The notes below the pieces were generated by a model, which saw only the letters and a program-made list of their open reading frames with translations, ran no database searches and was not told where the DNA came from. Both the position numbers and the translations under genes were made by a program. A stretch of DNA of 26,946 bases from a virus. Positions within the stretch are counted from its first letter, which is position 1; each line of letters starts with the position of its first letter. The stretch covers positions 1 to 26,946 of the IMG/VR virus record IMGVR_UViG_3300031576_000251; one strand, 5' to 3'. Positions 6,399-26,946 of the stretch are shown here, piece after piece.

Positions 6399-6454
6399 CT
6401 CCCCTCTCCCGCAGGTCCCGTTAGGGGATGAGGGAGAGGGGTCAGGTGTGAGGG
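6399..6454. repeat. Family A repeat, long-loop variant (A4)
   Basis: It has the same structure as A3, with the inner GGTCCCGTTAGGGGATGA segment between the CTCCCCTCTCC and GGAGAGGGG arms. It ends 24 nt from the ATG of the 146-residue protein. Confidence 0.9.
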
Positions 6455-9613: not shown

Positions 9614-11009
9614 TCGTCACCTTGCTCCCTCTCCCTGTGGGAGAGGGCTGGGGTGAGGGAGAAGCGCCATTATTCGAAGCGCCGTTCCCCGCATTGAATC
9701 GCCTCTCAGCTTCCAACATGGATTTGGCAAAAGATGCCTGTTTAAGCGTGTCCTCTTCCTCTTTATCCTTCAACATCTGGTCGATAAAGGCTTGGCTCTT
9801 GCCTTCCTCGCGTAAGATGGTTATAAGTGGCATCCCCGCATTGACATTGGTCATCCTCGTCTGCGACTGCGTGAACGGCTGCACCGTTTCGGGCTTATCG
9901 AAGACTGGCGTCACATCTTCGGGCTTCACCTCCACACCTGAAGCCCTCAACATGAATAAAGTCACCTGCTTCCATACGGGAACAAAGCGATCTATGCGGT
10001 CCTGTGCTTTTTTATTCAACGGCGCTTCCATGGCGATCAACGCCTCGCCCGAAAGATTGCTTCCCACCGAAAAGAAATAATGCTTCGGCGTCCGTGTGAT
10101 CGAGCTGATCGCCGTTGCCATGTTGTCAATGCCCTTCAAGTAATTATCCAGGTCAGAAGCCGCGAACTGCCCCGCCATGGTCTGTTGACCAACTCCATCG
10201 CCTGCAGGCAGGTCCCACACTTCATTGGGTGAGTTCTTTAATTTGCCGTTCACTTCTGCATTGCTGATCACATATCTCTGCGGGAACGCGCCGAACTCTG
10301 CGGTCACCATCATGTCGGTCAACAACTTGTTGATTCCATTTTGGATGGGCACCACATTCTTCAGGTCACTCTTCACTTTTCGTTGACCCATCCGATAATG
10401 AAACACAGGGATCTCACCAAACGGATTCTCTGCAGTCGGGTTCTTCCCAGGCGCTTCGAGTGACGTGAACTCCTGCACATTTTTTGCCTTGTTACGGCTC
10501 CGATAATATTCAAGGTGGTCCGCGTAATACAGCGTCATCGAAAGCCGTTCACCGTCATCCACCCACCACTTCGCCCCGAACTTCTTCTTGCGCGGCTCGC
10601 TCTTCTCGTAAAACAAATGCACCAGCCGCGGGTCGTTGTGATACCCCTGCATCACGCCATCTGTATCTTTCCAGGCAATGAAATAACCTTCACCCGCGAC
10701 CAGGGTTGCTTCATGCACATCATCGCTTTCAAGTGAGATCTCCGAAGCCTCCCAGATCTCCCGCCATTGACTATCTACGTTCGTGCTTACTTGGATCTCG
10801 CGTAGGTTGATGCGGTCTCGCGCTGAATCAACTACTACAGAGCACCAATTCTCTGCAAAATAGGCGTCCAGGTCCTTGAAGATCTCCTGCAAACGTTTAG
10901 CCGTATACACCAGCGGTTGCTCGCCGTCGTAATAATTGAACAATGCGTTATAAGGCTCCTGCTTTGCTCTCAATGTTTTGAACGCCAATTGCAAATCTTG
11001 TATTGACAT
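9606..11009 (-). CDS. Portal protein (SPP1 gp6-like)
   Basis: This 467-residue protein opens with 'LQLAFKTLRAKQEPYNALFNYYDGEQPLVYTAKRLQEIFKDLDAYFAENWCSVVVDSARDRI', typical of SPP1-type portals ('YY.G..p......r.......w...vVd...dRl'). Later 'NPFGEIPVFHYRMG', 'QNGINKLLTDMMVTAEFGAFPQRYVI' and 'TPKHYFFSVGSNLSGEALIAMEAPLNKKAQDRIDRFVPVWKQV' are the conserved clip/stem core. It forms the dodecameric DNA gate at the packaging vertex. The C-terminal ~14 residues (SPSPQPSPTGRGSK...) come from a family A repeat. ATG 11007-11009, with a family B repeat 14 nt upstream. Confidence 0.93.
   Translation of the reverse strand: MSIQDLQLAFKTLRAKQEPYNALFNYYDGEQPLVYTAKRLQEIFKDLDAYFAENWCSVVVDSARDRINLREIQVSTNVDSQWREIWEASEISLESDDVHEATLVAGEGYFIAWKDTDGVMQGYHNDPRLVHLFYEKSEPRKKKFGAKWWVDDGERLSMTLYYADHLEYYRSRNKAKNVQEFTSLEAPGKNPTAENPFGEIPVFHYRMGQRKVKSDLKNVVPIQNGINKLLTDMMVTAEFGAFPQRYVISNAEVNGKLKNSPNEVWDLPAGDGVGQQTMAGQFAASDLDNYLKGIDNMATAISSITRTPKHYFFSVGSNLSGEALIAMEAPLNKKAQDRIDRFVPVWKQVTLFMLRASGVEVKPEDVTPVFDKPETVQPFTQSQTRMTNVNAGMPLITILREEGKSQAFIDQMLKDKEEEDTLKQASFAKSMLEAERRFNAGNGASNNGASPSPQPSPTGRGSKVTNA
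9625..9659. repeat. Family A repeat in frame at the portal C-terminus (A7)
   Basis: CTCCCTCTCCCTGTGGGAGAGGGCTGGGGTGAGGG. On the coding strand it is read as SPSPQPSPTGRGS, just before the stop and the start of the overlapping head morphogenesis gene. Confidence 0.9.
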
Positions 11010-11023
11010 AATCCTCGTAATCC

Positions 11024-11081
11024 TCTCCCCCTAAATTGCGTTAGCAATTTGGGGGGATGCCGCTTCAGCGGCAGGGTGGTC
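11024..11081. repeat. Family B palindromic repeat (B3)
   Basis: CCCCCTAAATTGC and GCAATTTGGGGGG arms, followed by GCCGC-ttca-GCGGC and AGGGTGGTC. It fills the gap between terminase and portal, 14 nt from the portal ATG. Confidence 0.9.
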
Positions 11082-12648
11082 AACCTTGATAACTTCCGAC
11101 TTCCTTCTGTGCTCTCTTCATCAATCGCAAAAGTTTGTTATACGCGCCGCTCCCCGCATCCACCTGGTCGTCATACTTGCCGCGGTTGAATGCCGCGCAC
11201 TCATCAATAAATGCTTCGTTCCATGCGCCTTTCAACAAAAAAACCATGCCGCCTTGCATCGCTGATTCAAACGGTTCTGAGCGTGACTCTTTATCGCCTG
11301 TCACCGTTTCGAACTTCACAGAGAATCCCATCAACAAACGGTTGGTAGCCTCCGCCGAATCCTTTCCTGCTGAACCTGGGTCCTGCTGGTGCCAGATATT
11401 CACCTTGCCATACATCTCTTTGTCGCTCATCGCAGTCTTCTTCATCTTCTCGTCGCGCTCATACGAAGTCCATTGCCCGCGCACAATGTCTATGATGTAA
11501 AAGAAACCGTCACTGCAATAAGCCATCAAAACGCCAGCTGTGAAATCACCCTTCGTCGAATTCGCCTTGTCCCACAGCCGCACGATAAACTTGATCGTCA
11601 CGCCTTCAGGGATTTTCGTAAGTACCTTGAACCAATCCCGTTTATATTTCTGCCCGCTCTTGGGGTACGGTAACTGCTGATACAACGCTTCGAAGTCATA
11701 GTCGCCCATATTGGCGCGTCTACTCAATAACCACTCACGCCCAAAGCGGCTTGCCCACAATGCCTCGCCTGGCTTTCTCCCCAAAGGATCTTCAAGCGGC
11801 AGATAAACCCCCTCCAGCATTTTCCTGCGCTGGTCATCGGCGTCAATTGCATAACTATCGAGCGCCAGCGCGGGTAACATAACCACATCCCACTGATCGG
11901 CATTTGGGTCTTCAGCCATACGCCGCACCAGGCGTCCTACCTGATCATCAGGGTGCCAGTGTGTAAAAAATAAAATGATTGCCGCAAATTCACGTTCAAG
12001 ACGGGTCAGCACCGATGACCTCCACCAGTCATCTACCAGCTCTCTACGCGGTTCGCTTTCCGCCTCTTCTCGGTTCTTGAATAGATCATCCCCAACAAAT
12101 AGGTCTGCGCCCAAACCTGTGATACCGCCGCCCACACCAGCGGCAACCACACCGCCTCGATGAGGCTGTGCCAGATCCCAGGCGGAGACGGATCTCGAAT
12201 CGCTCGATAATTCAACAGGCTGATCGCGGCTCGATAGTCCTCCAAAGATTGCCTGGTATTGTTTGCTCTCGATCAAGTCGCGCACTGCGCGGCTGTTCTT
12301 GCTTGCCAGATCCGCCCCATACGAGCTCATGATGATACGCGTATCTGGCAAGCGTCCCAGAATCCATCCAGGAAACTTTCGGCTCGCCAGTTCGCTCTTT
12401 CCATGGCGTGGCGGCAACAGGATGATTAAACGCCCGATCCCTTCTTGCCCCTTGGTCTGGATGAACTTCGCAACCTTCTCCAGCCTTTCGGAGATCAAGC
12501 GCATGTGCTGGGCATCCTCGAATTTAGGGTCCACATATTGGCAAAAATACATGAAGCGTTGACGCGCTAATTTCCTGCGGTCATGCTCCTGTTTTGCCGC
12601 GCTGGGTGAAATGTGCGTCTTGTTCGGCGCTAAAGGCATCGGGTACAT
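11080..12648 (-). CDS. Terminase large subunit (TerL)
   Basis: The protein has 522 residues. The N-terminal ATPase has Walker A PPRHGKSE (79-86) after LIILL, a Walker B-like segment LFVGDD (183-188) followed by KNREEAES, and coupling motif III FFTHWHPDD (227-235). The C-terminal RNase H-like nuclease shows LWDKANSTKGDFTAG (358-372, D360 candidate metal ligand), QQDPGSAGKD (421-430) and DDQVDA (493-498). Full length for the family, so both motor and nuclease look intact. It cuts and pumps the phage DNA into the capsid. ATG 12646-12648 overlaps the TAA of the upstream TerS-like gene in a TAATG junction, coupling their translation. Confidence 0.95.
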   Translation of the reverse strand: MYPMPLAPNKTHISPSAAKQEHDRRKLARQRFMYFCQYVDPKFEDAQHMRLISERLEKVAKFIQTKGQEGIGRLIILLPPRHGKSELASRKFPGWILGRLPDTRIIMSSYGADLASKNSRAVRDLIESKQYQAIFGGLSSRDQPVELSSDSRSVSAWDLAQPHRGGVVAAGVGGGITGLGADLFVGDDLFKNREEAESEPRRELVDDWWRSSVLTRLEREFAAIILFFTHWHPDDQVGRLVRRMAEDPNADQWDVVMLPALALDSYAIDADDQRRKMLEGVYLPLEDPLGRKPGEALWASRFGREWLLSRRANMGDYDFEALYQQLPYPKSGQKYKRDWFKVLTKIPEGVTIKFIVRLWDKANSTKGDFTAGVLMAYCSDGFFYIIDIVRGQWTSYERDEKMKKTAMSDKEMYGKVNIWHQQDPGSAGKDSAEATNRLLMGFSVKFETVTGDKESRSEPFESAMQGGMVFLLKGAWNEAFIDECAAFNRGKYDDQVDAGSGAYNKLLRLMKRAQKEVGSYQG

Positions 12649-17510: not shown

Positions 17511-17547
17511 TCCCCCTCTCCCAGCGGGAGAGGGCTGGGGTGAGGGT
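17511..17547. repeat. Family A repeat (A10)
   Basis: CCCCTCTCCCAGCGGGAGAGGGCTGGGGTGAGGG in the 56-bp gap before the ASCH gene. Confidence 0.9.
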
Positions 17548-17895: not shown

Positions 17896-18146
17896 CACGC
17901 ACCTCCGAAATATTCAAATGCGTTGATAAACCTGTCACAGGCTTCTTTACCAAAGTCCTTCTGCATAAGATGAGCAACCAGCATCCACTTGCCATAATCC
18001 AATTCAGTTTCAGCCAGAGCCTTCAAACTCTTCTCCGACATCGTCAAATATTTTTGATACCTGGCAAGCATCGTAGCTCTCTCAGTATCGGTTATTCGTA
18101 TCATCGTGACGATGCTTGGTGGCACCTGCAATTGATTCAATTTCAT
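17895..18146 (-). CDS. Unknown 83-residue helical protein
   Basis: MKLNQLQVPPSIVTMIRITDTERATMLARYQKYLTMSEKSL and so on: mostly helical, with a Met/Lys-rich amphipathic pattern and no recognisable motif. It overlaps neighbours at both ends by 4 nt or less (ATGA at 18143-18146 and TGATG at 17893-17897), so it is part of one translationally coupled set with the membrane-HTH protein and the 113-residue protein. Possibly a small regulator or structural cofactor; this is inference. Confidence 0.55.
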   Translation of the reverse strand: MKLNQLQVPPSIVTMIRITDTERATMLARYQKYLTMSEKSLKALAETELDYGKWMLVAHLMQKDFGKEACDRFINAFEYFGGA

Positions 18147-19039
18147 CTGGCACCTTCCTTCATTAGCTCAGGAAAATCCCTCACCGCATAATCAATCCAT
18201 CCATACGCCACGCGCTCGCTCGTTCCATAGCGCGTACAGATCCACTTCATTGTGATGATCTTTGCATCTCCGTTTTTGCGCATCTCCTCCACGATCAACT
18301 TTCTCTCATTCGTTGGCAACTGTCGCCAGCTTTGATATTTACCGAAAGTCGCAGGGGTCTCACTGTTACTTTCAGAAACTTTCCCTGAAACTTTCACCTT
18401 GCCGTTGCCATTTGCTGAAACTCCCAACTCCAGCGCCATCTTCTTCAATTCGTGCCTTTCCTGTCTGCGTGCATCAGCCTGTTGTTGTTTGAAAGCCTCC
18501 TTCGCGTCATCAATGGCTTTCTGTACAGCCTTCTCATCACGCAGTACCTTCTCCGCCACACGCCTGCTATGCTGACTGCGCAAACTGATCGTCAATGCGC
18601 CAGCCACGCTCAACGTCGAAAGAAGCAACTTCGAGAAACGTTCGATGAATTCCGAATCATCCAGCAACACATTCACCGTCAGCACCACCACCAAATAAAA
18701 GCCAGTGACCAATACCGCGGTGGTGATCGGCGCTCGCGGGTCACCCTCGCCCCTCGACGCGTTGTAATCCACAAACTGCGTCACGGTCGTCACGGTGCCA
18801 AGCCCAAGAAACTCAACCACCGCCGCACCGATCAGGCTCACCCAGAAACCCATATTCAACACATTCAGCAGGTTATCAAACGCCAGGCTCGCAGGGATGA
18901 TCGGCGCAAACAGTGGCACATAACCCACCACCACATCCACCAGCAACCGCTCAAAGGCATGGCTCAACTTCAGCGCGCCTTCCAACAGGCTGATCACCCA
19001 GGGCACAAAACTCAGTTTTTTTGTTTTCACTTTTGCCAT
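18143..19039 (-). CDS. Four-TM membrane protein with coiled coil and C-terminal HTH
   Basis: The start at ATG 19037-19039 (MAKVKTKKLSF) gives 298 residues; the extension to 19063 begins with TTG and lies in a repeat. Four hydrophobic segments (roughly 45-60, 62-85, 103-125, 135-155) are followed by a long charged coiled coil ('RRVAEKVLRDEKAVQKAIDDAKEAFKQQQADARRQERHELKK'). After a Ser/Gly linker, a C-terminal domain 'LPTNERKLIVEEMRKNGDAKIITMKWICTRYGTSERVAYGWIDYA' has an HTH pattern. Such a protein would put a DNA-binding domain at the inner face of the membrane. It is next to the FtsK/HerA-like gene and may anchor DNA or the translocase. No family recognised. Confidence 0.65.
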   Translation of the reverse strand: MAKVKTKKLSFVPWVISLLEGALKLSHAFERLLVDVVVGYVPLFAPIIPASLAFDNLLNVLNMGFWVSLIGAAVVEFLGLGTVTTVTQFVDYNASRGEGDPRAPITTAVLVTGFYLVVVLTVNVLLDDSEFIERFSKLLLSTLSVAGALTISLRSQHSRRVAEKVLRDEKAVQKAIDDAKEAFKQQQADARRQERHELKKMALELGVSANGNGKVKVSGKVSESNSETPATFGKYQSWRQLPTNERKLIVEEMRKNGDAKIITMKWICTRYGTSERVAYGWIDYAVRDFPELMKEGAR

Positions 19040-19052
19040 AAACACTTTCTTC

Positions 19053-19147
19053 TCCCCTCCCAAAATATCCCGTTGATGGTCGAGTAGGGCGCTCTTGTTC
19101 TTTGCCCGTATCGAGACCAGGGTATTTGGGGAGGGGTCAGGGGTGGG
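19053..19147. repeat. Family B repeat with nested family D palindrome (B4/D2)
   Basis: CCCCTCCCAAAATA and TATTTGGGGAGGGG arms enclose a family D unit (GATGGTCGAGTAGGGCG...CGTATCGAGACCA, 19075-19119), so one family has inserted in the loop of another. It fills the gap 13 nt upstream of the membrane-HTH gene. Confidence 0.9.
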
Positions 19148-19149
19148 AA

Positions 19150-20616
19150 CTACGCCCCAGCCATATCTGGGGTTTGGTTCAGCTTTGGTGGCGTTTGTTC
19201 CCGCATATACGGGCTTGGGGCGGTTTGAGGGGTTTGTTGGTTTGTTGCTTCTTCCCCTAAATACTCCGCTGTAGGCGGATATTTGGGGGAAAGCGGCGAA
19301 GCCGAAGGGGGTCCTACAAGTGCTCGTAAAGCATCCGTCACTACCCGCGCATTCCCCTGGCTGGTATCCTTCTTCAACCAGCCTCGTGCCTCATAACGTT
19401 CTGCCATCTTACGCGCGCCCGTATCGCTCAACCCCTGCTCCATCAGAAAATCCATGGTCATCTTTCCATCAGCCTGGCGCAATGAATTTATCACGATCCT
19501 TCTCTCTTCCTCAGGCAATGGCGAAGTGATCGCAGACTCTTTGACAGACATCCACTCTCGTTCCCGTTCTGGTGCAACATAATACGTTTGCACCTTTTGA
19601 TACTTCCCATTCGCCAGCAAGATCGCCCGACCAGGGTGCTTTAGCTTCAACGCCTGCTTGCCCCATTTGGGCGACCCCAATGTCACATTGCCACTCGTAT
19701 CATCGGCAACTCGCAGGCATAATCGGGTTGGGAACATCGCGGAAAGTCCGCGTGGGATATCCTCACTCCTCCAGTTGTGTGCCGCGATCATCAAATGCAC
19801 GCCCCACTTTCGACCCACTCGAGCCAGGTCTGCCACACGTTCCTGCACGCCGCGATCGCTCAAATGCGTGTTCATCTCGTCCGCAATGAAATAAATACGT
19901 TTCAATCTTCCCTCTCCTGTAGGAGAGAGTGGGGTGAGGTCGTTATACGCGTCCACGTCTTCAGGTGGAATTCCTTCTCGCGCCGCAACACGGAACAAAG
20001 CGCTTCTCGCCTCCACTTCAGCCTGCATCAACGTGAGAAGCCTGATCAACTCTGAGCGCGATCCCGCCACGGGCTGTTCGGCGAACACATTCCATAGATC
20101 AGGGTTGAAAGTGTGCATCACAGGGTCTGCAAGATATAACTTTGCACCCTGCATCCGCACCACGTGCGCGATCAATCGCAGAACCATACTCTTTCCGCTT
20201 TCCTGCGACCCGCCGATCAACATGTTCATGATCTTCGACGGATGCAAATGCACCTTTCCGCGCAGGCTCACCGCCAGCGGAATCTCACTGCCTTTCACAT
20301 CCTCAACAGGGAAGTTCACCACCTGCGTCAGCTTCGGTCTTCCTGTCAACGAGATGGCAAAACGCAAGCCGCTAGAGTTGCTCAACACCACAGGCAAACC
20401 GCCAACCGCGGTGCTCAATTGATGGACCACGTGGTCATTGGCATATTTGTGGATCGAACCTCGCAGGTTGCGCGCATCCATCACAGCCAGCATCAGGATA
20501 AAACTGCCATCCTTCACCACCTGGAACTTCATCGGCGGCTGAAGCTTCAATTCATCCACCAACACATGCTCAACTGCCTGAGCGATCTCTCGCACTCGGG
20601 CTATTCCTGTGGTCAT
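19150..20616 (-). CDS. FtsK/HerA-like DNA translocase ATPase
   Basis: The protein has 488 residues. Walker A is GGSQESGKS (135-143) in 'MNMLIGGSQESGKSMVLRLIAHVV', Walker B is IYFIADEMN (241-249, D246/E247), and 'RKWGVHLMIAAHNWRSEDIP' (269-288) is the sensor region typical of FtsK/SpoIIIE (...G.h...a.qrp....i.g). The C-terminal 'LRQADGKMTMDFLMEQGLSDTGARKMAERYEARGWL' is a winged helix like FtsK gamma or a related DNA-binding unit. There is no TM. Two repeat-derived segments are present: LTPLSPTGEG (227-236, between the Walker motifs) and residues ~436-456 from family B. Likely pumps or positions DNA, perhaps with the adjacent membrane proteins. Confidence 0.85.
   Translation of the reverse strand: MTTGIARVREIAQAVEHVLVDELKLQPPMKFQVVKDGSFILMLAVMDARNLRGSIHKYANDHVVHQLSTAVGGLPVVLSNSSGLRFAISLTGRPKLTQVVNFPVEDVKGSEIPLAVSLRGKVHLHPSKIMNMLIGGSQESGKSMVLRLIAHVVRMQGAKLYLADPVMHTFNPDLWNVFAEQPVAGSRSELIRLLTLMQAEVEARSALFRVAAREGIPPEDVDAYNDLTPLSPTGEGRLKRIYFIADEMNTHLSDRGVQERVADLARVGRKWGVHLMIAAHNWRSEDIPRGLSAMFPTRLCLRVADDTSGNVTLGSPKWGKQALKLKHPGRAILLANGKYQKVQTYYVAPEREREWMSVKESAITSPLPEEERRIVINSLRQADGKMTMDFLMEQGLSDTGARKMAERYEARGWLKKDTSQGNARVVTDALRALVGPPSASPLSPKYPPTAEYLGEEATNQQTPQTAPSPYMREQTPPKLNQTPDMAGA
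19254..19313. repeat. Family B repeat inside the ATPase gene (B5)
   Basis: CCCCTAAATA and ATATTTGGGGG arms, an inner TCCGC/GCGGA stem, then AAAGCGGCGAAGCCGAAGGGGGTC as in B2. It is translated in frame near the ATPase C-terminus. Confidence 0.88.
19909..19939. repeat. Family A repeat inside the ATPase gene (A11)
   Basis: TCCCTCTCCTGTAGGAGAGAGTGGGGTGAGG. On the coding strand it reads DLTPLSPTGEG, between Walker A and Walker B. Confidence 0.9.
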
Positions 20617-21569
20617 ACGTCCTCCTCGATGATTGCATCTTCGACCTCATCCAATAACGTTCGGTCCATCGCGCCTTCAGGTAATATTTCAATAGTCGGT
20701 TGCCTGCGCGGTCCGTCCAGAAGGATTGGCGGCACTTCTGGTTTCCCAGCAGGTAGAGCCCGCACCAGATCAACTTTCTGTTTTCGCTCGGTCATCTCAG
20801 TGCTTCCCTGTTGAAACTCAACGCTTCCATTTTCCAATAGTCGCATCGAAGTCGAACTATCCATATCCATCGCTGTAGATTCGATCACCAACACAGGCGA
20901 AGCGCCAAACGCATCCTTTTGAATCACACGCACCTTCGAATATCGAATACCCATCAACGTGATCAACCCGATCACCACCGCAAAAGCCATCCACGGTAAC
21001 CAGGCACGCGTCATATTGGTTGCTCTGTCCCGTTCAACAGCCAGCACCACGCTCTCCGCATTTCCCATCGCCGCGGTCGCCTGTGCCGCGCCGTAAGCCG
21101 CGTCCATCGTCGCAGTCGTTTGCCACGCTTGCTGGGTCTGCGTCTGATGCAATGCCTGGGCTGTCGCAGTCTGCGGGAACGCAGTCGCCGTTCCCTGTGC
21201 CTGAGCCGTGGTCGTCACCTCAAAAGATCGCTGTGTTGCAAATTGATTCGCAACGAACGCTTCATGCGTTGCGGTCGTCTGCATGTTGTAAGCCTGTTGA
21301 GTCGCTACCGCGGCTTGCTGTGTGGCATTCGCCTCCTTCACCTGTGCAGTCGCAGTTAATTGACCCCATATCCATATCTGCGTCGCCTCGATCGCTCTGC
21401 TTGTCGCCTCAGCCCTCTGCACTTCCACAAAGAAATCAACTGCTGGGTTCAATGGCTCTGGTGTTGTCGTAGGGGCTCCAAGCGGTGCACTACTCACACA
21501 TCCAGAGATTGCAAGAAGTAATAGAAAGAAAAATATGAGTTTGAATATGAGTTTGAATATGAGTTTCAT
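20613..21569 (-). CDS. Lipoprotein with Ala/Thr/Gln-rich ectodomain, TM and acidic cytoplasmic tail
   Basis: The protein has 318 residues. The signal peptide MKLIFKLIFKLIFFFLLLL and the lipobox AISGC (C24) predict lipid attachment. Residues ~50-175 are low complexity, rich in A, T and Q ('TATAQ', 'ATQQA' units), probably a long helix. One TM (190-209, WLPWMAFAVVIGLITLMG) then gives a C-terminal ~105-residue acidic tail ending DEVEDAIIEEDV, expected in the cytoplasm. Such topology (lipid outside, stalk, TM, tail inside) suggests a membrane scaffold. The gene overlaps the ATPase start by 4 nt, so the tail may contact the translocase. The KLIF repeat of the signal peptide is a 12-bp tandem repeat. 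Family not recognised. Confidence 0.65.
   Translation of the reverse strand: MKLIFKLIFKLIFFFLLLLAISGCVSSAPLGAPTTTPEPLNPAVDFFVEVQRAEATSRAIEATQIWIWGQLTATAQVKEANATQQAAVATQQAYNMQTTATHEAFVANQFATQRSFEVTTTAQAQGTATAFPQTATAQALHQTQTQQAWQTTATMDAAYGAAQATAAMGNAESVVLAVERDRATNMTRAWLPWMAFAVVIGLITLMGIRYSKVRVIQKDAFGASPVLVIESTAMDMDSSTSMRLLENGSVEFQQGSTEMTERKQKVDLVRALPAGKPEVPPILLDGPRRQPTIEILPEGAMDRTLLDEVEDAIIEEDV
21532..21567. repeat. 12-bp tandem repeat, three copies, in a signal peptide
   Basis: AATATGAGTTTG, AATATGAGTTTG, AATATGAGTTTC. It encodes the n-region of the lipoprotein signal peptide (KLIF units). Copy-number change would keep frame and alter the number of positive charges. Confidence 0.9.
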
Positions 21570-21958
21570 TTCTTGTCACCTTTCATGGTCGTCCACATCA
21601 TCCACATCATGTCTTGCAGGCTCGGCTTCTTCGCGTTCGCCTGGCGCACTTGTGGCTGTGTTCGTCTCTGCCAGAATCTCTCAGCGCCTCCATTTATCAA
21701 CTCACGGATTCGCGCCTGCTGATAAACAAAGATCCCGATCGTGATCGCCAGCGAGACGATCACTCCCGCGATCACCTTCGACAACACGGTCATGCCCAAC
21801 TCCTCGGTCGCCTGAACGATCTCAGGTGAACGGTCCAATCGAATCTCCAACTCGGTCTGCGCCGCCGCCGCTCGCGTCTGATCCCAACTCGAAAAAGCGA
21901 ACAACCCCCCCACTAGCAAGCACGCCAGAATGATGTAACCAAATCCTGTCCGATCCAT
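21566..21958 (-). CDS. Small two-TM protein upstream of the lipoprotein
   Basis: The start at ATG 21956-21958, with GGAGG 6-7 nt upstream, gives 130 residues. One TM is at the N-terminus (about 8-27, IILACLLVGGLFAFSSW). A ~30-residue polar stretch ('AAQTELEIRLDRSPEIVQATEELG') follows, and a second TM (about 60-82, VIAGVIVSLAITIGIFVYQQA). The tail is basic and Gln-rich, ending in Met/Lys (DMMWMMWTTMKGDKK). It overlaps the lipoprotein start by 4 nt. It is the first gene after the iteron region and probably forms a membrane complex with the lipoprotein and the FtsK/HerA-like ATPase. Family not recognised. Confidence 0.6.
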   Translation of the reverse strand: MDRTGFGYIILACLLVGGLFAFSSWDQTRAAAAQTELEIRLDRSPEIVQATEELGMTVLSKVIAGVIVSLAITIGIFVYQQARIRELINGGAERFWQRRTQPQVRQANAKKPSLQDMMWMMWTTMKGDKK

Positions 21959-22275: not shown

Positions 22276-25200
22276 TCATAACAAAGTCTCCTGTTCCGCA
22301 TCGTTCAAGGGTCCAGTTGGGGTGCTTTCAACGGTATCCAAAGCAGTAGCAGGAACGTGTCCGTTTGATTTCAATTCATCCAGTCCATAACGCACCTTCA
22401 ACAACTCAAACCGCTCCTGAACAATGTCGGGTTGCGCGCCGCTGTGAACAATGGCGACAAACCCCCGCCCCATCTTGTGCACCGGTATCCTCATCTCACG
22501 ACACTTCCTTCCGATCGTGGAAGCGGTCACGCCACTCGCCGCAAATTTCTTTTTGCCTTTCCTTTTAACTTGTTGTTCACCGTCCTCTTCGCCCTCGTCG
22601 CCTGATTTGATGATGCTCGCTGGAGATTTTCCCGTCCCCAAATTCATCTCATCCATGATGAAGTTCACAACCTTGGTGAGATCTGAATAGCGAATATATT
22701 TGGCGGTCCCCCATGTAGCCAGTTCCGTATCATGCACAAAGCCCAGAATGGTAAAAGCCGGGTCCCGCAAACAGGCGTCAATGGCTTCAATGATGCGCGC
22801 CTCTGTTTTTTGCGCCCGCTCAAACTTCTGTTCTTCATATAGATTCTTCACAACCAGGTTGATCTCCTCCAAAGCCTTTTCGGTCTGTTGGTCTTTGGTT
22901 GGGTTCATCGTCAGAATATATTTGATGGGAACAGTGACCTGGTTCACACGTGTGGAAACCCTCGGGTCCTCAAGATAATCGGGCGGTTGCAGTGTGGGTT
23001 GCCAGTTCTTCAATCGCCATGTCATATCTAGGTTCCGCTTAAATAACGCCTGCGCTTCCATCTCAACGCTCCACCGCCTCGGAATTTTCTTCTCGATCAA
23101 CTCTGAAAGCTCATGCTTGATCGTTTTGATGGTCAGGAATCGGCTCTCGGTCGCATCCTGCGGAAATTTCCCGTACATCGTTCCCGTCTTGGGTCCATAC
23201 ACATAGAAATTCACCACCTCAAATTCCACACTGCCGTCCGGGTTCTTGAAGGATGTCATCATGGGCACCCAGGCTTGCTTTCTCATGGCTCCAATGTTAA
23301 GCATCACTACCCGATCATCGAATTCGTCCATGTTGTCTTTGATCTCGTCAAAGAACATCGTCCCGCGATACATGTGTTGCATGTGCTTGAACGAAGCCGC
23401 GCTCCCTGCGCCGGATGATTTTGTCAATCGGTAACATACCTCGCCCATTCGCAAAACGATGGCGCTCTTTCCCGAATCGTATTCCCCTTGCGCACGCAAA
23501 TAAGCCAGCTCATCAAAGCAATCATACAGCCATGTGAATTGGGCGTAATAAGAGCACAACTTATAGTCCAAAGGGTTATCCAGCAGGAAGGATCGCTTCA
23601 TATAAAGATCGTTCCATGCAAGTAATTCTCTGGTTGGTTTCTCGCCACCCAGATCCGAAGCAAACAACACAGCGCCGCTCTGAATGTTCGCGTCCACACG
23701 CGGAAAATACCGAATGCCTTTAATATCCAAATGCGTGGCTTTACCAATTCTCCCTTCAGGATCTCGATAAGCAAATGTAGCCTTCGACATTTTTGCATCC
23801 CATAAATAATCCACCAGCCAGCCTTTATTACTTCCCTCCTCACCAGGGAACCAGCCTCCAAAAATGCGCTTTACATCGAGCGGTTTACTATCATCTGTCA
23901 CATCGTCCGATCGCTCACCCAATGCCAGCTTCAAATTCTTGTTGAACTGGCTCATGTTTGTTCCGAATGAGCGCAGGAAAATCGCGATTAACTCAGACGA
24001 CAATTTCTTATCCCTCTTGATCTGAGCGATGATGTCATACGCGCGCATCATTGCCCCGTTCTTTTCCTCGACCGATAAGCCCTTATCTTTCTGACGGAGT
24101 GCCGCGTCTCTCGCCGCCATTTCTGCCACCGTCATCGATTTATTGATCCGCCGCCTGATCAACTCCACTTGCTTCTCTTCAGCGACCTCTCGACGCACGC
24201 ACCACTGGCGGATATCGTTTACATCCTTCAACGCCCAATTCACGATCTGCGTCATCGCTCCCAATTGACTCGCAATCGGGTAATCATGGTGCTCGCCAAT
24301 GGCGGCTTTCCTGCCTGCCCCGTCACTATCTGTGGCATGGTAGATGGTCGCATGTTGTTTGCGCAATTCTTCTGCCCAATAGTCATCCAGATACGTCCCG
24401 ATTTGACCAAACCCGTTGAAGCCCCATTGTGCAAGTGTGATCACATCTGCCGGTCCTTCAACGATCACAACATGAGGCGAATCGGTTCTATAATTCCAGC
24501 CAAAATAAGGTTGTCTCTCTCCCATCAATTCGCGTCTCGGGTTATAAGATTTGTTCTTGCCCGGATCGCTGACCAGTTTTCCGTCTTCAGTCTTCACCAA
24601 ATTCCGCGAGCTCATGTAGGTTACTTTTTGGAAATACAAATGCGGGTAGATCAACCTTGACTTTCCCATAAAGCCTGGGATGTATCCATTCTGAATATCA
24701 TCGTTGCTGATCGCGTCCGTGACTTCCAATTCACGCTCCCATTTATCCTTCAGCTTTGCCACATCGCCTTTGAAACCCAAAATAGCAACAGCCGCAGGGC
24801 TTTCAGGGTCAATGTTGTTCGCCACAAACGTTTCGCGCATCTCTTTGAATTCAGAAGTAGTAGCTAGTCCGCTAAATCCAAGCCTGGCATTCTGAATGGT
24901 CTCGTCGGTCCAGCCTCGCGCCCGCGCGTAACCCATTGCTCCCTGGCTCGATTGCATCCACCTGTTGAAAATTTTTGTTGCCACAGAAAGCAAATCCTCC
25001 GTTGCCTGATGGCGCAACCAGGTCTTCGTGTCACGATGCGTCCACTCAGGCAACGTGACACCCGCCTTTTTGGCGGCAAACTCCAGGGCTGTTTTCATAT
25101 CCATCCCACGTTCGTTCTTGAGATAGTTGAAAACATCGCCGCCCTGACCTTTTTGATTCCAGTAGTAGTACCACTCGCCAGATTGACGACTGCGAATCAC

Positions 25201-25335
25201 AACCAGGCTGTGCAAGCCTTCCCGATCACCACGGTATTGGTTACCCTTCCCCGCTAATGGGTAATCCTCCTTGATGATCTCCACCAAATCGACGCGCTTC
25301 TTGATCTCTCCAAAGATGTTGTCAGCCATGCTCAT
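22276..25335 (-). CDS. TOPRIM primase-helicase with degenerate zinc-binding domain
   Basis: The protein has 1019 residues. Residues 1-95 match the DnaG CHC2 domain by shape ('VDLVEIIKEDYPLAGKGNQYRG', 'WYYYWNQKGQGGDVFNYL'), but the zinc ligands are replaced and there is no Cys at all before residue 379. The TOPRIM core is intact: VIVEGPADV (290-298, E293) and YHATDSDGAGR (332-342, D336/D338). Between about residues 400 and 600 lies a linker. The helicase part has Walker A GEYDSGKS (617-624), Walker B MFFDE (660-664) and an arginine-finger candidate ESRFLT (730-735). The C-terminus is basic and probably winged-helix. Likely the phage replicative primase-helicase. Start ATG 25335; ATG 25329 is possible. 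Confidence 0.85.
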   Translation of the reverse strand: MSMADNIFGEIKKRVDLVEIIKEDYPLAGKGNQYRGDREGLHSLVVIRSRQSGEWYYYWNQKGQGGDVFNYLKNERGMDMKTALEFAAKKAGVTLPEWTHRDTKTWLRHQATEDLLSVATKIFNRWMQSSQGAMGYARARGWTDETIQNARLGFSGLATTSEFKEMRETFVANNIDPESPAAVAILGFKGDVAKLKDKWERELEVTDAISNDDIQNGYIPGFMGKSRLIYPHLYFQKVTYMSSRNLVKTEDGKLVSDPGKNKSYNPRRELMGERQPYFGWNYRTDSPHVVIVEGPADVITLAQWGFNGFGQIGTYLDDYWAEELRKQHATIYHATDSDGAGRKAAIGEHHDYPIASQLGAMTQIVNWALKDVNDIRQWCVRREVAEEKQVELIRRRINKSMTVAEMAARDAALRQKDKGLSVEEKNGAMMRAYDIIAQIKRDKKLSSELIAIFLRSFGTNMSQFNKNLKLALGERSDDVTDDSKPLDVKRIFGGWFPGEEGSNKGWLVDYLWDAKMSKATFAYRDPEGRIGKATHLDIKGIRYFPRVDANIQSGAVLFASDLGGEKPTRELLAWNDLYMKRSFLLDNPLDYKLCSYYAQFTWLYDCFDELAYLRAQGEYDSGKSAIVLRMGEVCYRLTKSSGAGSAASFKHMQHMYRGTMFFDEIKDNMDEFDDRVVMLNIGAMRKQAWVPMMTSFKNPDGSVEFEVVNFYVYGPKTGTMYGKFPQDATESRFLTIKTIKHELSELIEKKIPRRWSVEMEAQALFKRNLDMTWRLKNWQPTLQPPDYLEDPRVSTRVNQVTVPIKYILTMNPTKDQQTEKALEEINLVVKNLYEEQKFERAQKTEARIIEAIDACLRDPAFTILGFVHDTELATWGTAKYIRYSDLTKVVNFIMDEMNLGTGKSPASIIKSGDEGEEDGEQQVKRKGKKKFAASGVTASTIGRKCREMRIPVHKMGRGFVAIVHSGAQPDIVQERFELLKVRYGLDELKSNGHVPATALDTVESTPTGPLNDAEQETLL

Positions 25336-25663: not shown

Positions 25664-25912
25664 TCACTTCGCCAGCCTCTGCAATGCGGATGCGAGCTGT
25701 GACTTGGCATCATCCACATCCTTGACCATTCGTGCAAGATCATCCAGTGCTGGGTCCAACAGCGACCCCAGTCCTGCACGTCTCATTGCTTGCCTGATGC
25801 GAATTTCCACACGTGGACTGCACTCTCCATGATCAGCCAATGCGCCAAGCACAGCTTCCAAATCGGAGCGCACCTTACTAAAAGAACCATTCATGCCCTT
25901 ACGTCTTGGCAT
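25664..25912 (-). CDS. Small helical protein of unknown function
   Basis: The 82-residue protein starts at ATG 25910-25912, overlapping the previous gene by 14 nt, with GGGAG upstream. Basic N-terminus (MPRRKG) and 'RVEIRIRQAMRRAGLG' followed by an acidic helix 'ALDDLARMVKDVDDAKSQLASALQRLA'. It could be a small DNA-binding or recombination accessory factor, but no family pattern is recognised. It is the last gene before the gap that precedes the primase-helicase. Confidence 0.5.
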   Translation of the reverse strand: MPRRKGMNGSFSKVRSDLEAVLGALADHGECSPRVEIRIRQAMRRAGLGSLLDPALDDLARMVKDVDDAKSQLASALQRLAK

Positions 25913-26213
25913 CCCGATTCTCCCGTTCAGTTGCTTCCATGTCTTTCCATGTCAGTTCGAGATAATGATCGAGACCATACAATGCAGTGACCATCAACCC
26001 ACCTGCAACAATGACCTTCCATAAAGTGGTCGCTACCAAAACTTCGCCATGCTCGAATAACCACACTGTAAATGGGATCATCAAACCAAGCACTCCGAAG
26101 ACATAAGCCAGTAATCTTGGCAAAACCTTACCCTTGAGTAACTTCATCCAGGGAAAGTAATGCAGGAATGCTTCGGTGATTATGACTAATGCAATCAATA
26201 TCCATTCGCTCAT
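25899..26213 (-). CDS. Three-TM small membrane protein
   Basis: The 104-residue protein has hydrophobic segments at about 3-19 (WILIALVIITEAFLHYF), 33-53 (LLAYVFGVLGLMIPFTVWLF) and 60-80 (ATTLWKVIVAGGLMVTALYGL), followed by a charged C-terminal tail (KDMEATERENRD). Small multi-TM proteins like this occur in phage accessory regions and may be holin-like or superinfection-related. No lysis gene is adjacent, so the role is unknown. It overlaps the upstream 78-residue frame by 86 nt. Confidence 0.55.
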   Translation of the reverse strand: MSEWILIALVIITEAFLHYFPWMKLLKGKVLPRLLAYVFGVLGLMIPFTVWLFEHGEVLVATTLWKVIVAGGLMVTALYGLDHYLELTWKDMEATERENRDAKT

Positions 26214-26367: not shown

Positions 26368-26946
26368 TTACTCAAGCTCTTCTTCTATCACCGCATACAT
26401 GCTTTTCAATTCATCGGTAACATGCTCATCGAACCACTCTGCAATTCTCTCGATTGGAATTGTGATCCCCTCTCGCGGAGCAGTGGCAATAAATTCCGAT
26501 TTGAAGCGCTGGTGCAGAACGAAGGCTAGAGAAAAACAATTTCCATCGTAACATTGTGACTTCTCGCCTCGGTAGCCTATGTGAATCAAATACCATTGGC
26601 ATACATTCAGCGCGAGATCCGCAGGACCTGATCCGCCATATCCCCACTCAAATCCCGAAGGGGAATGCTGAACGACAAGATGGGGAACATTCGTGATCAC
26701 TCCGCCCACTACTTCCTCATCTTGAAACTTACGTCGCATCATAAGCATCTCATTGAGGGGAATTGAAAAATCGTTCTCATCACTAAATTCATCACGTTTG
26801 GCAATATCGTCGTTCATGGAATCTCCTCTTCTATGACCTCTGCAAATAGGACCCATGCCTGCATCCACAGACTTGGGGTTGCTCAATGGTTTCTTGCAAC
26901 GTGAGCAATAACTGACCCTTCTCACGCCGCCAAACGACAACTGTTG
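26368..26946 (-). CDS. DUF6011 zinc ribbon plus DUF6166-like protein (open at right edge)
   Basis: The frame is open to the window edge. The first residues read ...SYCSRCKKPLSNPKSVDAGMGPICRG, the DUF6011 four-Cys/GxGPxC zinc ribbon. The C-terminal domain contains 'HSPSGFEWGYGGSGPADLALNVC' and 'FKSEFIATAPREGITIPIERIAEWF', typical of DUF6166. An internal ATG at 26815-26817 has a strong AGAGGAGATTCC site, so a shorter 149-residue protein without the zinc ribbon may also be made. Both domains are common small phage proteins without known function. 5' end is outside the window. Confidence 0.75.
   Translation of the reverse strand, partial: QQLSFGGVRRVSYCSRCKKPLSNPKSVDAGMGPICRGHRRGDSMNDDIAKRDEFSDENDFSIPLNEMLMMRRKFQDEEVVGGVITNVPHLVVQHSPSGFEWGYGGSGPADLALNVCQWYLIHIGYRGEKSQCYDGNCFSLAFVLHQRFKSEFIATAPREGITIPIERIAEWFDEHVTDELKSMYAVIEEELE

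Follow-up and report, generated by a model that had tools for sequence, protein, structure and literature searches.

A probable FtsK-type DNA translocation module with a putative repeat-marked loading site in uncultured tailed phages

The window is an IMG/VR virus record, linear and 26,946 bp long, with all of its recognisable genes on the minus strand. In minus-strand order these are a primase/helicase-like replication protein (22276..25335), a cluster of four genes, a set of small genes, and then virion genes down to position 1224. The cluster comprises a 2-TM protein (21566..21958), a lipoprotein (20613..21569), an FtsK/SpoIIIE-family ATPase (19150..20616), and a multi-TM protein with a C-terminal HTH (18143..19039). 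An earlier sequence-only reading had described four adjacent genes here, the first three overlapping by 4 nt, and this description proves exact: all four are present on the minus strand, with overlaps at 21569/21566 between the 2-TM and lipoprotein genes and at 20616/20613 between the lipoprotein and ATPase genes. The ATPase gene and the fourth gene do not overlap and are separated by a gap of about 110 nt. The 2-TM gene most likely starts at ATG 21958, just after a Shine-Dalgarno-like GGAGG and in line with the end coordinate of the earlier reading, and the fourth gene most likely starts at ATG 19039, just after a Shine-Dalgarno-like sequence of the GGAGG/GGGAGG type; the latter start is preferred because TTG 19063 sits upstream of the ribosome-binding site. 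The phage context put forward in the same reading is borne out by the terminase large subunit (TerL, 11080..12648, minus strand), the phage's own packaging motor, and by portal, MCP, head-tail, neck and tail genes on the same contig as the module. The terminase, portal, capsid and tail genes also rule out an actinomycete ICE (AICE).

Relatives of the module were collected by protein search of viral contigs (L002 is G001, L003 is G002, L005 is G003, L006 is G004, L018 is G005, L023 is G007 and L024 is G008, with L019 near-identical to L018) and by DNA-pattern search (L027, which is G009, and L044, which is G010). The sample consists of metagenomic fragments and spans about ten lineages in all. 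The triad of 2-TM protein, lipoprotein and ATPase is found in the same tight order in all nine assessable lineages, namely the window, G001 to G004, L018, L023, L024 and L027, with L044 left out since a contig edge cuts it. The ATPase is therefore not a lone gene in most relatives, the outcome that would have spoken against a dedicated module. As a four-gene unit the module fares less well: several relatives keep the three-gene core but lack the fourth gene or have another in its place. TerL of one of two families is encoded on nine of ten module contigs, the window and eight relatives, with the PHROG_38 type in the window, G001, G002, G005 and G009 and the PHROG_9 type in G003, G004, G007 and G010. 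Since the triad spans both terminase families, the module is older than the virion genes or moves independently of them. The primase/helicase-like gene lies directly upstream of the module, and takes the same position in G001 and G002. Kilobases upstream, a class of small multi-TM protein recurs (window 25899-26213; L003 271-915; L005 2505-2858; L006 2400-2864; L023 2755-3108), and near the contig end the window encodes a protein with DUF6011 and DUF6166 domains (26368-26940).

By sequence and predicted fold, the ATPase is an FtsK-family motor. It carries a Walker A motif (GSQESGKS) and a Walker B motif (IYFIADE), scores 25.7 bits against Pfam FtsK_SpoIIIE (PF01580; gathering score 24), a threshold that the ATPases of G001, G002, G007 and G009 also pass, and matches PHROG_1358 'FtsK/SpoIIIE-like' with an E-value of 4e-27. 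When a profile of five ATPase relatives was compared with solved structures, FtsK, TcpA of pCW3 and type VII ATPases were among the matches. The AlphaFold model of the window ATPase (mean pLDDT 68) retrieved TcpA and FtsK as its best Foldseek matches (FtsK E 2e-16), and VIA-align 2 again ranked TcpA (Z 27.4) and FtsK (Z 26.9) above HerA and VirB4. Thus, of the 'FtsK/HerA-like' label first given to this protein, the FtsK half stands and the HerA half does not, as FtsK and TcpA are closer by both profile and fold. A type VII EccC/EssC identity was rejected, the EccC equivalog scoring 45.3 bits against a cut-off of 346.6 and the ATPase consisting of a single motor domain and a winged helix. That winged helix, which had been predicted, is seen in the model as a helix-helix-helix-two-strand unit at residues 369-426 (pLDDT about 80), within a C-terminal domain of residues about 366-435 (19312..19521, minus strand) that is kept in relatives. 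The Pfam family FtsK_gamma had no match in the ATPase, which drew weak matches to PaaX-like winged helices alone, and we therefore treat the domain as an analogue by position and predicted fold rather than a proven member. Hydropathy places no TM segment in the ATPase. Outside phages, searches gave one weak, lone FtsK in a bacterial genome (Tenacibaculum) and one FtsK at 26% on a plasmid (Azospirillum).

The two proteins encoded upstream of the ATPase are both predicted to be membrane proteins with cytoplasmic tails. Hydropathy gives the 2-TM protein its two TM segments, flanking an outside loop, and gives the lipoprotein a signal and one further TM. Homologues of the 2-TM protein occur in nine lineages, and its basic cytoplasmic tail bears a conserved P-K-x-S/T-x-Q-D motif (also written P-K-L-x-x-Q-D). 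The lipoprotein has a lipobox, an A/T/Q-rich stretch of ~165 aa that is predicted to be helical, a second TM at residues 190-208 followed immediately by basic residues, and a tail that ends in a conserved LDExExxxxEE; its structure model is of low confidence (mean pLDDT 56) and consists of long helices. By positive-inside reasoning, both tails would be cytoplasmic.

The fourth gene is an accessory and variable member. It had been read as encoding a four-TM protein; three of these segments are strong by hydropathy and the fourth is only probable. The HTH-bearing type is shared by the window, G001 (L002, a 58% homologue) and, distantly, G010 (L047, E 1e-10), whose protein shows a distant link to its G001 counterpart. 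G003 and L023 encode a zinc-finger version and G004 an unrelated HTH version, and hhalign detected no homology between the membrane proteins of G003 and G004 and the window protein. In G002 an actin-like (ALP) gene (L003 9391-10374) follows the ATPase directly and takes the place of the fourth gene, whereas no fourth gene lies nearby in the L018 lineage. The fourth protein was also considered as a relative of SpdB through DUF2637, which we take to be an Spd-related family, and was rejected for lack of a match. DUF2637 (PF10935) was absent from seven records at E 10, a weak test given how diverse Spd proteins are (PMC4170104). The linker of this protein, in its zinc-finger or HTH forms, is likewise encoded by repeat arrays that run through several reading frames: AGCGACGC in G003 and L023 (L005 10448-10543; L023 9802-9968) and GCAAGCAA in G010 (L047, about 1380-1600, reverse). 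This suggests that the linker repeats may form a second cis site for the DNA-binding membrane protein.

A scan for clustered octamers brought out a feature that the sequence-only reading had not contained, YCAAACY repeats that lie in coding orientation within ~100 nt of the 3' end of the relatives' ATPase genes. In the window the array spans 75 bp (19171..19245, minus strand) and is built of 7-bp repeats with the consensus TCAAACC. Lineages share a layout in which seven 7-bp units are set apart by 1, 2, 3, 13, 4 and 3 nt; in most relatives an ATATGG element comes next (window 19161..19166, minus strand). All seven units are perfect TCAAACC in G003, and one or more have decayed in some other lineages. 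The window array is itself degenerate, with two exact YCAAACY units and a decayed sixth unit; its spacing is kept, and it is recognised by its layout. Six relatives have four to seven exact YCAAACY units in the final 160 nt of this gene, against a maximum of two to three in Markov simulations. A weight matrix trained without the window scored the window site at 42.3 bits, the next site at -18.6, and simulated maxima at -16.5 on average. The matrix scan found one compact cluster per genome, and a lone cluster of this kind is more in keeping with a loading site than with guide sequences spread along the DNA. A genome-wide search for over-represented short words that might act as KOPS-like guides gave nothing convincing, and a looser repeat pattern run over IMG/VR returned mostly CAAACC runs without a nearby ATPase, together with one true relative, L044.

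The repeats are translated in most relatives, often to QT dipeptides, and they could be taken for a low-complexity, QT-rich protein tail without a function in DNA. Where the array is coding, protein homology could indeed contribute to the matrix score. However, the heptamer is read as QT, SN or LKP depending on frame, with all three frames used across the arrays and two to three of them within five of the six relatives above. In L027 the array is non-coding and inverted, about 260 bp downstream of an ATPase gene whose protein lacks the tail. Six further copies, in both orientations, lie on a contig with no ATPase gene, 3300018059_000009 (L032 5235-5539; L031 1-375); they resemble at least two lineages, and three are in tandem. 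At the level of the sequences compared, protein homology cannot explain the multi-frame reading, the non-coding copy or the ATPase-free copies, and a protein-tail origin is accordingly highly improbable. Across lineages the array co-occurs with the ATPase winged helix and not with ParB, the 4TM protein, ALP or terminase type: L023, where it is absent, has the sole ATPase with a different C-terminus, the winged helix being replaced. As judged from these patterns, the array adds independent support to a translocation module.

Other repeats are found in and around these genes. Further clusters lie downstream of the module at L006 10747-10816 (AATGCACCCGAA) and, as a palindrome, at L023 10465-10574 (GCACAAAATGTGC). 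Palindromic elements of the form CCCTCTCCC...GGGAGAGGG are scattered through the phage, with 12 half-sites against 0.22 expected, as is a second type, CCGCTTTCCCCCAAAT...; window positions are 275-295, 1680-1725, 6401-6441, 9627-9647 and 17514-17534. Two related stretches (19907-19940 and 19250-19310) lie in frame in the ATPase gene, where they add ~7 residues before Walker B and ~23 between the winged helix and the array. These elements are reminiscent of Rickettsia palindromic elements.

The closest known parallel is the TraB/TraA-Spd-clt system of Streptomyces plasmids and AICEs (pSVH1, pWTY27, pIJ101). TraB, a dsDNA-moving homologue of FtsK, loads at clt, a set of 5-9 bp direct repeats, and its C-terminal winged helix reads 8-bp direct repeats; in pWTY27 clt includes four 7-bp repeats and has its start within the gene for the translocase (PMC3583192). 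SpdB2, a membrane protein, binds both DNA and TraB and has a role in intramycelial spreading (PMC4170104). Common to these systems and the module are an FtsK-type motor bearing a winged helix at its C-terminus, neighbouring membrane proteins of which one has a DNA-binding part, and a short direct-repeat cluster within or next to the gene for the motor (PMC3583192, PMC4170104, PMC12857230). The module differs in its carriers, which are tailed phages equipped with terminase and capsid genes, in a motor without TM segments of its own, in the sequence and layout of the repeats, and in its lipoprotein and 2-TM partners, for which no family similarity was detected and no DUF2637 was present in the records. 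TcpA of Clostridium perfringens pCW3, the best structural match together with FtsK, is FtsK-like and a suspected dsDNA mover (PMC12857230), although it has its own N-terminal TM domain, unlike the TM-free module ATPase, and works with a T4SS. A search for signs of T4SS conjugation by way of its relaxase found no PF03432 member in 11 fragmentary records. The PHROG_1358 proteins of Bacillus, Listeria and Enterococcus phages (PM1, Moonbeam, SP-15) share the motor domain at 22-28% identity, and in PM1 the FtsK-like gene lies between the holin and a replication initiator, and neither a lipoprotein nor a 2-TM partner is annotated there. A literature search for FtsK-type transfer in Chloroflexota or their phages found no paper with the terms used.

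By analogy, we infer that the module works like TraB/clt. We regard it as reasonably probable that it encodes a TraB/FtsK-type dsDNA translocase, anchored by two membrane partners, that loads onto phage DNA at a putative clt-like site. Temperate or plasmid-like phages would use this machine at the membrane, on DNA of their own. As a soluble protein, the ATPase would assemble as a hexamer and be tethered to the membrane through the 2-TM protein and the lipoprotein, with their conserved cytoplasmic tails as likely docking points; FtsK and TraB have their membrane anchor in cis, and here it would be supplied in trans. The C-terminal winged helix may recognise the TCAAACC array contained in the 3' part of the ATPase gene itself, and the loaded motor would then drive phage dsDNA through the membrane or septum, while the accessory membrane protein, through its HTH or zinc finger, might tether DNA in a manner like SpdB2. 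It is the match between this parts list and the TraB/clt scheme that points to sequence-directed loading of a membrane-anchored dsDNA motor. Weighing against this reading are the decay of the window array, the varying orientation of the arrays in L027 and 3300018059_000009, which lends a strict polarity no support, and the lack of DUF2637 and PF03432 matches in the fragmentary records. The sequence-only reading had proposed membrane-anchored dsDNA translocation with a likeness to actinomycete FtsK-type transfer, and the triad in nine of nine lineages and the clt/TRS-like array both favour that proposal. As to where the DNA goes, we lean slightly towards delivery to an adjoining cell over capture by a daughter cell at division.

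The alternative that survives best, possible though clearly less likely, is phage-plasmid segregation, in which a septum-anchored motor pulls copies into both daughters or helps to resolve dimers and the array is centromere- or KOPS-like. FtsK itself works in this way, ParB genes are present in G003, G004, G005 and G007 and lie upstream of the module in several contigs, several contigs encode tyrosine recombinases, and in G002 the actin-like ALP gene immediately follows the ATPase; on gene content, such partition genes fit segregation equally well. However, the triad is constant while ParB and ALP are not, and no ParB was seen in the window, itself a fragment. The canonical guidance sites of FtsK, moreover, are dispersed over the chromosome rather than gathered into a single compact cluster. 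As a protein, chromosomal FtsK differs from the module ATPase in having an N-terminal multi-TM domain in cis.

We consider it unlikely that the array is an operator, a replication iteron or a recombination target that lies in the gene by chance, leaving the module without sequence guidance. The copies on 3300018059_000009 lend this some weight, as they are several, in both orientations and adjoin large serine recombinase genes, yet such a site would not be expected to track the ATPase winged helix as the array does. Besides the large serine recombinases, of which it has two, this 15.9-kb element encodes a tyrosine integrase and an AAA helicase, and neither the ATPase nor a terminase was found in it; it may be a satellite that uses its helper's site. 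Superinfection exclusion or host-envelope modification, in which the lipoprotein and TM proteins block incoming DNA and the ATPase acts as effector, is very unlikely: phage lipoproteins and small membrane proteins commonly serve exclusion, but the winged helix, the conserved array and the constant FtsK motor would be left unexplained. FtsK/HerA ATPases package DNA in other viruses, and several are among the Foldseek matches, but an alternative virion packaging or ejection motor can be largely set aside given the separate TerL in nearly all module contigs, the window included.

Overall, an uncultured group of tailed phages appears to encode an FtsK-like pump and its own apparent DNA landing site, in a layout known from Streptomyces conjugative plasmids, and the analogy suggests that phages with this module can pass their DNA across a membrane or septum independently of virions. 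The module would represent a type of translocase that leaves membrane anchoring to two separate, dedicated proteins, and would unite two lifestyles that are normally apart, that of virion-borne phages and TraB-type dsDNA conjugation. More speculatively, these tailed phages may possess a capsid-free second route, a conjugation-like pump paired with a clt site that carries their genomes from one cell to an adjoining one, and on which pump-less satellites with several copies of the site, such as 3300018059_000009, hitch-hike. If this is true, one could test whether phages spread through multicellular bacteria with neither lysis nor virions, and whether smaller elements parasitise such a route.
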